A DNA stretch of 64,000 bases from the NCBI RefSeq assembly GCF_010091945.1, contig NZ_WVIE01000027.1, positions 1 through 64,000 of the forward strand. Direction: 5' to 3'. This document shows, piece by piece, positions 38,671-43,625 of the stretch (its first letter is position 1; the number at the start of each line of letters is the position of its first letter). The translations under genes and the position numbers were made by a program. The notes under the pieces were generated by a model. It did no database searches and had not been told where the DNA came from. It worked only from the letters and a program-made list of their open reading frames with translations. Source of the DNA: Myxacorys almedinensis A. GTDB lineage: Bacteria; Cyanobacteriota; Cyanobacteriia; Leptolyngbyales; Leptolyngbyaceae.

Positions 38671-40059
38671 GTGTTTACCACCAATGCCGATCACCAAATT
38701 CGCTCTCCCCTAACCTCTCTCACGTTCACAGAAGGCAGCACACAAGCCCTGCATCTGCGCTCAACGCTCCAAGATTTGTCTTTGTACGAATTTCAGGCAG
38801 ATTGGGAAATTTTGGGTAGCGAACTTGCTCAGAGCTTCGAGCGATACCCACTTTTACCAGGCGTGATTTTATTTGATCAGGAAACATTGGTCGGCATGAT
38901 TTCTCGGCAATGCTTCTTAGAACATTTGTTGCGTCCTCATGGCGCGGAGCTATTTCTGCAAAAATCGCTGCAAGTGCTGCATAGCTATGCCCGCCTTAGC
39001 CCACTGGTTTTGATGGCAGACACATCGATTTTAGGAGCAGCCCAACAAGTGATGCGCCGCCCCATCGAGCGTTTTAACGAGCCGATCGTCGTTCAATTTT
39101 CTCCCAATACCTATCGGCTCCTAGACGCTCACGAACTCAGCGTCGCCGCTTGGCAACTGCGCGGTATTGAAACTCAAGTCAGAATCGAGCGCTTGCAAGT
39201 TCAAATGCTGCAAAGCGAAAAAATGGCAAGTCTAGGACGCTTGGTGGATGGAATCTCTCACGAGGTTCTCGACCCGGTTAGCTTTATTTGGGGCAATCTG
39301 TCTCACGTTGCTGCCTACAATCACGACCTTTTAGACCTGCTCGACGCCTACGAACGGCAGGGCAACCCATCGCCTGAAATTGCAGAATTGCGAGATGCGA
39401 TCGAGGTAGATTATATCCGCGAAGATTTGCCAAAAACGTTAGACAGCATCAAAAGTGGGGCTGATCGCTTATCTAAATTGGCAAACAGTTTGCAAAATTT
39501 TTGTCACATTGATGAAGTCTTTCCTCGACCGACCGATTTGCATGAGTGCCTAGATTCTGTTTTGCTTTTGCTCAAAAGCCGCTTGACTAGCGAAATACAA
39601 GTGACCAAAAATTACGGTCATTTGCCCCCGATCTCGTGCTTTGGCGGGCAGCTAAATCAAGTCTTCATGAATATTTTGAACCGGGCGATCGATGGTCTGC
39701 TTAACGAGGCAGCCAACAGCCAACTTAACGCTACTCTCCCTCAACATCGTGCCAAAGTAATTTACCTGCCTAAAATCGTCATCTCAACCGATGTTCGTTC
39801 CTTGGATCACACTGGCGATCGCTGGGTTTCAATTCAAATAGCTGATAATGGCACAGCCATGTCGGCAGAAGTTCAGCGACAACTGATGCAAGCCTTTTCA
39901 ACGGAGCGATCGCTTGTCAAAGAAACGAGTTTGGCAATGAGCTACCGAATTATTACAGCACGCCATGGCGGCAGGTTTAAAGTTTACTCTTGCATTGATC
40001 CGAGCGATCCACTGTCTAGAATGGGCACTGCTTTTGAGATTCTGCTGCCCATGGTCTAA
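38671..40059 (+). CDS. Histidine-kinase-like protein with degenerate ATP-binding domain
   Basis: The 462-residue protein, starting with GTG, has an N-terminal sensory region (GVILFDQETLVGMISRQCFL) and a DHp helix with His197 in GISHEVLDPVSF. The ATPase half keeps the overall pattern of a cyanobacterial kinase but loses key residues. The N box reads NILNRAIDG, with Arg338 where Asn is expected. G1 reads DNGTAM in place of DNGxG. G2 reads VKETSLAMSYRII in place of a Gly-rich GTGLGLS run. Autophosphorylation is doubtful; it may act as a scaffold or phosphoacceptor. Confidence 0.85.
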   Translation: MFTTNADHQIRSPLTSLTFTEGSTQALHLRSTLQDLSLYEFQADWEILGSELAQSFERYPLLPGVILFDQETLVGMISRQCFLEHLLRPHGAELFLQKSLQVLHSYARLSPLVLMADTSILGAAQQVMRRPIERFNEPIVVQFSPNTYRLLDAHELSVAAWQLRGIETQVRIERLQVQMLQSEKMASLGRLVDGISHEVLDPVSFIWGNLSHVAAYNHDLLDLLDAYERQGNPSPEIAELRDAIEVDYIREDLPKTLDSIKSGADRLSKLANSLQNFCHIDEVFPRPTDLHECLDSVLLLLKSRLTSEIQVTKNYGHLPPISCFGGQLNQVFMNILNRAIDGLLNEAANSQLNATLPQHRAKVIYLPKIVISTDVRSLDHTGDRWVSIQIADNGTAMSAEVQRQLMQAFSTERSLVKETSLAMSYRIITARHGGRFKVYSCIDPSDPLSRMGTAFEILLPMV

Positions 40060-40408: not shown

Positions 40409-40645
40409 ATGCTCGTTATTCTTACTGCTTTATTTGTCACTGGTTGGGTTGCTGTTGCCCTCATTGGTTCCCTTACCTACTTCCTGGGCGAGCAATCCAA
40501 GCCCATTCACGAACGCAACTGGCGCTCTCAGTCTTTTGAAACCTTGTCTACGTCCATCACCGGCAAGCAAATTGATTTTAGCGATCGCGTTCCTGCTTTC
40601 GCCGTATCCGACGCTTATTCCAGCCATAAGCTGCCCAATGCGTAA
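40409..40645 (+). CDS. Small one-helix thylakoid-type protein, possibly Psb35-like
   Basis: A 78-residue protein with one N-terminal membrane helix (LVILTALFVTGWVAVALIG), then YFLGEQSKPIHERNW and a soluble tail. The pattern is that of a conserved cyanobacterial protein which I tentatively associate with Psb35, a stabiliser of the CP47 assembly module; this name is from memory and not certain. AGGAGG precedes the ATG. It has its own terminator. Confidence 0.7.
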   Translation: MLVILTALFVTGWVAVALIGSLTYFLGEQSKPIHERNWRSQSFETLSTSITGKQIDFSDRVPAFAVSDAYSSHKLPNA

Positions 40646-40683: not shown

Positions 40684-40717
40684 CCCTTGTTTCTTTAGTC
40701 AGAAGCAAGGGTTTTTT
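40684..40717 (+). terminator. Terminator of the small membrane-protein gene
   Basis: An 11-bp stem CCCTTGTTTCT/AGAAGCAAGGG (one G-T pair) with loop TTAGTC is followed by six T. Confidence 0.9.
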
Positions 40718-42981: not shown

Positions 42982-43227
42982 ATGGAAACTGTCAATATTC
43001 ATGAGGCTGAAACGAATCTTTCACATCTGTTGTCGCGTGTGGAACTGGGAGAAGAAATCATTATTTCAAATCAAGGTGTTCCTGTGGCAAAACTGGTTCC
43101 ATTTCAGACCTCATTCAATCGAAAGGCTAGTTTAGGGCTAGATCGAGGGCGTTTCACCGTGCCAGAAGACTTTAACGCTCCTTTGCCAGAAGAGATTTTG
43201 GCAGCATTCGAGGGCAACGAAGAGTGA
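42982..43227 (+). CDS. Phd/YefM-family antitoxin
   Basis: An 81-residue protein with the Phd pattern VNIHEAETNLSHLLSRVELGEEIII, then SNQGVPVAKLVP. It should bind the operon promoter and neutralise the PIN toxin encoded immediately downstream, with which it overlaps by 4 bp. The C-terminus (FNAPLPEEILAAFEGNEE) is the likely toxin-binding tail. Confidence 0.93.
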   Translation: METVNIHEAETNLSHLLSRVELGEEIIISNQGVPVAKLVPFQTSFNRKASLGLDRGRFTVPEDFNAPLPEEILAAFEGNEE

Positions 43228-43625
43228 AGCTCTTGATGGATACACATTGTTGGTTGTGGTGGTTTACTCAACCAGAGCGCTTGAGTGAAGAAGCGATCGC
43301 ACACCTATCTGATGAAACTAACGAAGTTTGGTTTTCAGTTGCTAGCGTTTGGGAAATGGGCATCAAAGTTGCGATCGGAAAATTGCCCTTACCAGAACCT
43401 ATAGACAGCTATATTTCTAGCCGCATGGTGCGACTGGGAGCGCGATCGCTAGAAATTACAGCAACCCATGCTCTACGAGCGGCTGCATTGCCGTTGCATC
43501 ACCGAGATCCGTTTGACAGAATGTTGATCGCACAGGCTCAGTTGGAAGGCATAACGCTTGTGAGCGCGGATGCAATGTTCAGGCAATACGATAATTTTTC
43601 ACTGCTTTGGGCAGCCAATTCGTAA
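43224..43625 (+). CDS. VapC-type PIN-domain toxin
   Basis: The 133-residue ribonuclease starts with GTG inside the antitoxin stop. The PIN acidic residues are visible in LMDTHCWLWW, VWEMGIKVAIGKL and HRDPFDRMLIAQAQ, with SADAMFRQYD at the end. The WWF/VWEMGIK pattern belongs to the VapC group that pairs with Phd antitoxins. Its likely target is tRNA or mRNA; this is family knowledge. Confidence 0.93.
   Translation: MKLLMDTHCWLWWFTQPERLSEEAIAHLSDETNEVWFSVASVWEMGIKVAIGKLPLPEPIDSYISSRMVRLGARSLEITATHALRAAALPLHHRDPFDRMLIAQAQLEGITLVSADAMFRQYDNFSLLWAANS

Follow-up and report, generated by a model that had tools for sequence, protein, structure and literature searches.

Gene and domain organization at the locus

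The window analyzed here is a stretch of 64,000 nucleotides from Myxacorys almedinensis A (contig NZ_WVIE01000027.1), and the gene under study occupies positions 38671-40059 on its plus strand. The gene starts with GTG and runs through 462 codons, the frame length given by an earlier sequence-only reading, to a stop codon, and its 462-aa product consists of a predicted CBS pair, a signaling helix, a DHp domain and a degenerate CA domain. The putative phosphoacceptor, His197 (39259-39261, +), belongs to an H-box with His197-Glu198-Val199 in the context SHEVLDP, and Asp201 at His+4 (39271-39273, +) stands where intact relatives have Asn. Residue conservation marks a linker helix (39148-39216, +) with the clade signature W161, G165, E167 and R171, and also the second DHp helix with the LQNFCHIDEV signature (residues 263-290; 39457-39540, +), which includes Cys278.

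The translation agrees with that reading both in what it regarded as kept (His197 and HEV, NQVFMN at residues 329-334 and ARHGG at 430-434) and in its three changes, Arg in the N-box, Ala in G1 and KETSLAM at G2. Arg338 (39682-39684, +), the fifth position of NILNRA, takes the place of the N-box Asn, as seen in the translation, phmmer and alignment; the assignment follows because phmmer pairs NILNRAID with the intact NLVNNAVD of LvrB. Ala396 (39856-39858, +) replaces the second glycine of G1 in the stretch DNGTA (392-396) according to the translation and alignment. The glycine run of G2 has given way to VKETSLAMS, of which KETSLAM (417-423; 39919-39939, +) forms the former ATP lid or G2 box, two residues shorter than in intact relatives. 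Among the features of an active HisKA kinase, the window protein has the H-box and lacks the N-box, G1 and G2; the combination seen in phosphotransferases of the ChpT/Spo0B/PhyT type, a conserved DHp His with a degenerate CA domain, is present. In Pfam, HATPase_c matched residues 328-461 (32.1 bits vs a cut-off of 26.4), and HisKA stayed below its cut-off (25.9 vs 26.9 bits) without a single significant stretch.

On its upstream side the gene is preceded by one for a divergent ABC transporter; small ORFs and a gene for an inorganic pyrophosphatase follow it. Promoter-like sites near the gene (5 vs a shuffled mean of 3.1, sd 1.8) and terminator-like sites (5 vs 2.7, sd 1.5) are barely more numerous than in shuffled sequence. 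One small ORF (40409-40645, +; 78 aa), with a hydrophobic start as judged by eye and no Pfam match above the cut-off, is followed by a terminator-like stem at 40684-40711. A 133-aa PIN-domain protein, possibly a VapC-type toxin, is encoded at 43224-43625 (+; PF01850, 62.4 bits).

Distribution and state of the boxes in orthologues

A marker profile built from the linker and DHp was searched against 388 sampled genomes of the class. Its matches separate into two score groups. One match of at least 174 bits was found in each of 109 genomes, a number counted by hand in which matches are classified by score rather than sequence by sequence; two of them are partial and one of these two, in G382, has an internal stop. 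The next best score was 165 bits, and in G012 it belongs to an intact relative (L135). In the family group of the window organism, 37 of the 42 listed genomes have a marker match.

The orthologue alignment contains 105 rows (A), namely the window protein, 80 loci from named cyanobacteria and 24 further loci. It was compared with 38 rows termed intact, which are adjacent sister kinases plus more distant relatives that share the N-terminal domain, a set that we selected from the listings and not one orthologous family. Another 29 orthologues of relatives (L002-L030), from partly repeated organisms, were left outside the 105 rows; inspection of their H-box and GxGxG states yielded no exception to the pattern of the alignment.

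The phosphoacceptor His and Pro202 are found in 105/105 orthologues and Glu198 in 103/105, so that the HExxxP H-box is present. GxGxG is absent from every orthologue (0/105) and present in 38/38 intact relatives. The first lid glycine, likewise invariant in the intact set, is Glu in 97/105, the exact sequence KETSL occupies the former G2 in 74/105, and 100 orthologues lack two residues of the lid stretch, the other 5 lacking more. Asn in the N-box (49/105) and the second glycine of G1 (89/105) are both retained in 38/38 intact relatives; 48 orthologues keep the N-box Asn together with an intact G1, and 21, among them the window protein, have lost both. The alignment of close homologues proposed by the sequence-only reading thus reveals losses common to relatives and no one-off, and close relatives with all boxes intact, which that reading had named as counter-evidence, do not occur among the 105 orthologues. 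The proteins examined that have all boxes intact fall outside the A clade, at about 45% full-length identity or less, and in the kinase part identity to the window protein reaches 48% among the matches listed.

In the most extreme members (L121, L127, L131 and L132), G1 is changed and the lid reduced or rewritten, with the His and QNFCH[IM]DEVY kept. HATPase_c did not match L121 and L131 in Pfam up to an E-value of 0.1, yet both retain these two features.

His+4 separates the two sets as well, being Asp in 105/105 orthologues and Asn in 38/38 intact relatives. HisKA phosphatase activity resides in the DHp, and HisKA phosphatases use Asn or Thr at His+4. A response-regulator phosphatase without kinase activity would find the seat of its activity intact here, and PhyP, later PhyT, was first proposed as a PhyR phosphatase according to PMC5898713. 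Because His+4 is uniformly Asp in the orthologues, a phosphatase role is less likely, and we consider it improbable.

Regional conservation and selection

Conservation, expressed as mean majority frequency, is concentrated in the middle of the protein. Orthologues exceed intact relatives in the linker (0.852 vs 0.695), the H helix (0.888 vs 0.750) and DHp helix 2 (0.874 vs 0.603), are about equal to them in the N-terminal domain (0.653 vs 0.643), and are slightly lower at the start of CA with the N-box (0.727 vs 0.746) and in the lid region (0.719 vs 0.786). The G1 stretch (383-397) is again more conserved in the orthologues (0.775 vs 0.695), which speaks against plain decay. Residues specific to the clade are, among others, W161, G165, E167, D201 and C278; W161 and G165 occur in 105/105 orthologues, and neither is the most frequent residue at its position among the 38 intact relatives. 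Cys278 occurs in 104/105, where 37/38 intact relatives have Ser. Cys323 (39637-39639) is present in 105/105 orthologues and also in 27/38 intact relatives, and a redox or metal role of Cys278 (39502-39504) and Cys323 is conceivable.

The former lid itself is conserved, with Lys417 in 95/105, Glu418 in 97/105, Thr419 in 99/105 and Leu421 in 103/105, and because each of these residues is kept in at least 95 orthologues, its pattern suggests a new use and not simple decay. Such a use could belong to an ATP-using kinase with an unusual lid, in which KETSL, retaining the Lys and Thr of the old GKGTGLGL, would contact the phosphates anew. This would account for the conserved lid residues, and it fits the 48 orthologues with N-box and G1 and the well-conserved G1 stretch. 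However, the window protein has no G1 glycine and carries Arg in place of the N-box Asn, a residue that contributes to Mg-ATP binding in known kinases; the 21 orthologues lacking both boxes speak against ATP use too, as do L131 and L132, which lack the KET part of the lid and still have the His and the DHp signature. ATP use is therefore unlikely for the window protein itself, though more conceivable for members whose N-box and G1 are intact, and we give the kinase reading as a whole little credence.

The nearest named match, from Myxacorys californica, is 81% identical to the window protein and, in a separate assembly, has the same N-box Arg, the same KETSLAM and the same Ala at the second G1 glycine; because the box changes are identical there, a sequencing error is an unlikely cause. 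Between the two genes dN/dS is 0.055 over 461 codons, with 0.026 in DHp and 0.065 in CA, values that are only rough because dS, at about 1.8, is saturated. As judged from these comparisons, selection is acting on DHp. The Myxacorys lineage is poorer in boxes than most and belongs to the 21/105 that have lost both N-box and G1, as a gene on its way to becoming a pseudogene in this lineage might; against decay stand the open frame, the low dN/dS, the congener with the same boxes lost and the presence of the family in most listed genomes of its group, and we regard it as highly improbable.

The gene is instead very probably that of a maintained pseudokinase, because the His is kept in 105/105 orthologues, DHp is conserved above the level of intact relatives and dN/dS is low. 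Together with the lack of any intact orthologue, these observations support the selection for a non-catalytic role that had been suggested from the single sequence.

Order of the losses

A tree was inferred by a quick search without bootstrap, with the box columns left out. Matches in the window genome outside the gene, kinase-only neighbors, one GGDEF row and the truncated L129 were excluded beforehand, and rows at least 72% identical to a kept row were removed (L031 was kept on purpose), leaving 77 rows. All proteins lacking the G2 run fall on the same side of a branch that has an SH-aLRT of 100 (53 rows vs 24), a grouping that fits one ancient loss of the ATP lid. Nine changes each are needed for the N-box and for G1 and none for the His, a pattern that fits later, repeated losses of these two boxes, the Myxacorys lineage of the window having undergone both. 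The three separate losses described earlier are thus all present, but they did not come as one package: G2 alone is lost in 105/105, one old and ancestral loss, and the N-box and G1 losses are later ones that 48/105 orthologues have escaped. One lid loss followed by stepwise erosion would make the family a natural series from kinase to phosphotransfer or regulatory protein.

Predicted structure of the N-terminal and kinase parts

The N-terminal region is a predicted CBS pair, or Bateman module (residues 26-170; 38746-39180, +), according to AlphaFold2 and structural matches. Modeled alone, its 145 residues reach a pLDDT of 94.0; the best structural match has a Z of 13.7 and an rmsd of 2.4 over 125 residues, the 50 entries shown (Z 11.8-13.7) are mostly titled CBS domains, and Foldseek also gives mostly CBS entries. 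The tandem CBS fold of AcuB, CBS-CP12 and CBSX2 resembles the predicted domain (Z 12.3-13.5), at only 6-18% sequence identity. The Pfam CBS model did not match the window protein up to an E-value of 1. CBS pairs commonly bind adenosine nucleotides, and several of the matching CBS structures carry AMP, ADP or ATP. A related N-terminal domain recurs, in some loci, in the GGDEF proteins and intact kinases that precede the orthologue; in two GGDEF neighbors the CBS model scored 16.4 and 18.2 bits, below its 24-bit cut-off.

AlphaFold2, supplied with 24 aligned sequences, scored the whole chain at 76.8 (mean pLDDT) and 0.41 (pTM), values at which the relative placement of the domains is unreliable. 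Structural matches to the predicted DHp-CA part include the histidine kinases LvrB, HK853, RetS and DivL, and a Bergerat-type CA fold is present (Z 17.7-18.4, rmsd 2.4-2.7 Å over 140-152 residues of kinase CA domains). Neither ChpT nor Spo0B is named in the 50 rows shown of either structural listing, which excludes nothing.

Genomic context and the sister kinase

Neighboring genes are lineage-specific, and a search among them for a conserved partner found none. Near relatives have a divergent ABC transporter as a neighbor, Nostocales an ArsP permease, and other lineages genes for carbonic anhydrase, DapB or an RNA methyltransferase. None of the 10 neighbor proteins scanned matched a response-regulator family.

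In 19 of the 80 loci from named cyanobacteria, the gene immediately upstream encodes an intact kinase with its domains in the same order. These sister kinases (B, e.g. L040:6300-7634) share the order of N-terminal domain, helix, DHp and CA with the orthologues and are nearest to them in the tree; they differ in their complete set of boxes, in Asn at His+4, in lacking the KETSL lid and in having Ser at the position of Cys278. In 6 of the 19 loci a further relative precedes the kinase, and all four of those scanned with Pfam are GGDEF proteins (L040:4828-6093, L043:5046-6218, L048:5093-6142 and L061:3482-4642); L049 and L057 also have a row of three genes (upstream relative, intact kinase, pseudokinase). 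The three-gene row that begins with a GGDEF protein suggests that the same input also has a c-di-GMP branch. At L129:2957-3916 (G072:C59) the sister kinase has an in-frame stop, and the adjoining pseudokinase is open. Flanking sequence in the 24 further loci mostly extends about 1.5 kb, too little to guarantee that an adjacent kinase would be seen.

Because the sister kinase adjoins in about a quarter of the named loci, a second role has to be weighed, that of a pseudokinase regulator that pairs with an active kinase via their related DHp domains and alters its activity; His197 may then be phosphorylated in trans by the CA domain of the partner. Besides the 19 loci, six of them with a GGDEF-type protein in front, the hyper-conservation of DHp fits an interface, and PMC9491836 and PMC12189002 provide precedents. 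The N-box Asn also follows the kinase, being kept in 20/22 rows with an adjacent sister kinase vs 27/80 without (3 rows whose upstream stretch was too short are not counted). This association is not independent of descent: on supported branches there are three independent pairs, with a sign test p of 1, which leaves it without support of its own.

Partner supply also weighs against a regulator. In the window genome, where 29/29 candidates were scored, no sister kinase of full length turned up, and the matches listed for G001, the Myxacorys relative, include none either. A further 14 matches occur in the window genome, none of them full-length; nine ORFs (L152-L160) and a tenth spanning L164 and L165 have the N-box, G1 and G2 glycines intact, and the fragments L161-L163 are too incomplete for the boxes to be read. 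An obligate partnership with the sister kinase was rejected on this ground, and because none is full-length there, the function in the window genome should be independent of it. Retention of the His in all 105 orthologues moreover exceeds the needs of a pure scaffold. A regulator is a serious contender, at somewhat better than one chance in three.

Proposed function

We tentatively favor a phosphotransfer node acting through His197, to which the sequence comparisons lend a little less than an even chance. It is preferred because of the invariant His with its acidic neighbor, the conservation centered on DHp and its occurrence in the window genome with no dedicated kinase found there. The protein would form a dimer through DHp and would have lost self-phosphorylation from ATP. 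His197 would receive its phosphate from the receiver of a response regulator or from another kinase and pass it on in the manner of ChpT, Spo0B or PhyT. The CBS pair, on binding an adenine nucleotide or similar ligand, might gate this transfer via the linker helix, and the former CA domain may have been retained as a docking surface.

Several observations count against phosphotransfer. The neighbors offer no response-regulator link, Asp at His+4 is unlike the intact relatives (we know of no phosphotransferase with Asp at this position), 48 of the 105 orthologues with N-box Asn and G1 are more than expected from a wholesale loss of ATP binding at the origin, the G1 stretch exceeds that of the intact set in conservation, and the adjacent sister kinase in 19/80 loci fits a role beside a kinase at least as well. 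A more elaborate version of the phosphotransfer node, which we think unlikely, is a widespread cyanobacterial hub whose CBS pair senses the adenylate state (or c-di-AMP) and drives a histidine-only relay with repurposed KETSL, Asp201 and Cys278; if this were true, the energy state would be read by the CBS pair instead of the kinase site. The family points to a signaling component with a CBS-type input, and an altered protein kept in many cyanobacteria looks like a working signaling part and not a decayed gene.

Comparison with known systems

To our knowledge, few pseudo-histidine-kinases are known. ChpT, Spo0B, PhyT, DivL and RetS come from Proteobacteria and Firmicutes, and RetS reportedly acts with GacS and DivL with CckA. 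RetS and DivL, which regulate other kinases, resemble the window family in combining the histidine-kinase fold with impaired catalysis, and their chains are among its structural matches, beside many active kinases. Their sensor domains are different, and the His that is invariant here has been lost from DivL. No title or opening of an abstract listed from the open-access literature searched describes the family itself, a scope outside which most subscription journals fall, and in PMC8846402 the terms CBS and Bateman occur only among the references.

In PMC5898713, PhyT, Spo0B and ChpT are called degenerated histidine kinases, and PMC9981736 describes a degenerated CA domain in ChpT. Pseudo-histidine-kinases, among them DivL, RetS and a pseudokinase form of ChrS, appear in PMC5898713, PMC9981736, PMC9491836 and PMC12189002. 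Going by PMC5898713 and PMC9981736, ChpT, Spo0B and PhyT likewise have a DHp with a conserved His and a CA-derived domain without ATP binding, and are of histidine-kinase origin. Unlike these three, to which it is likened by features only, the window family has Asp at His+4 and a CBS pair in front, and it is cyanobacterial. Pseudo-histidine-kinases as such are thus already known, and what is new here is the CBS-linked form in cyanobacteria, whose KETSL lid is shortened and whose His+4 is Asp.
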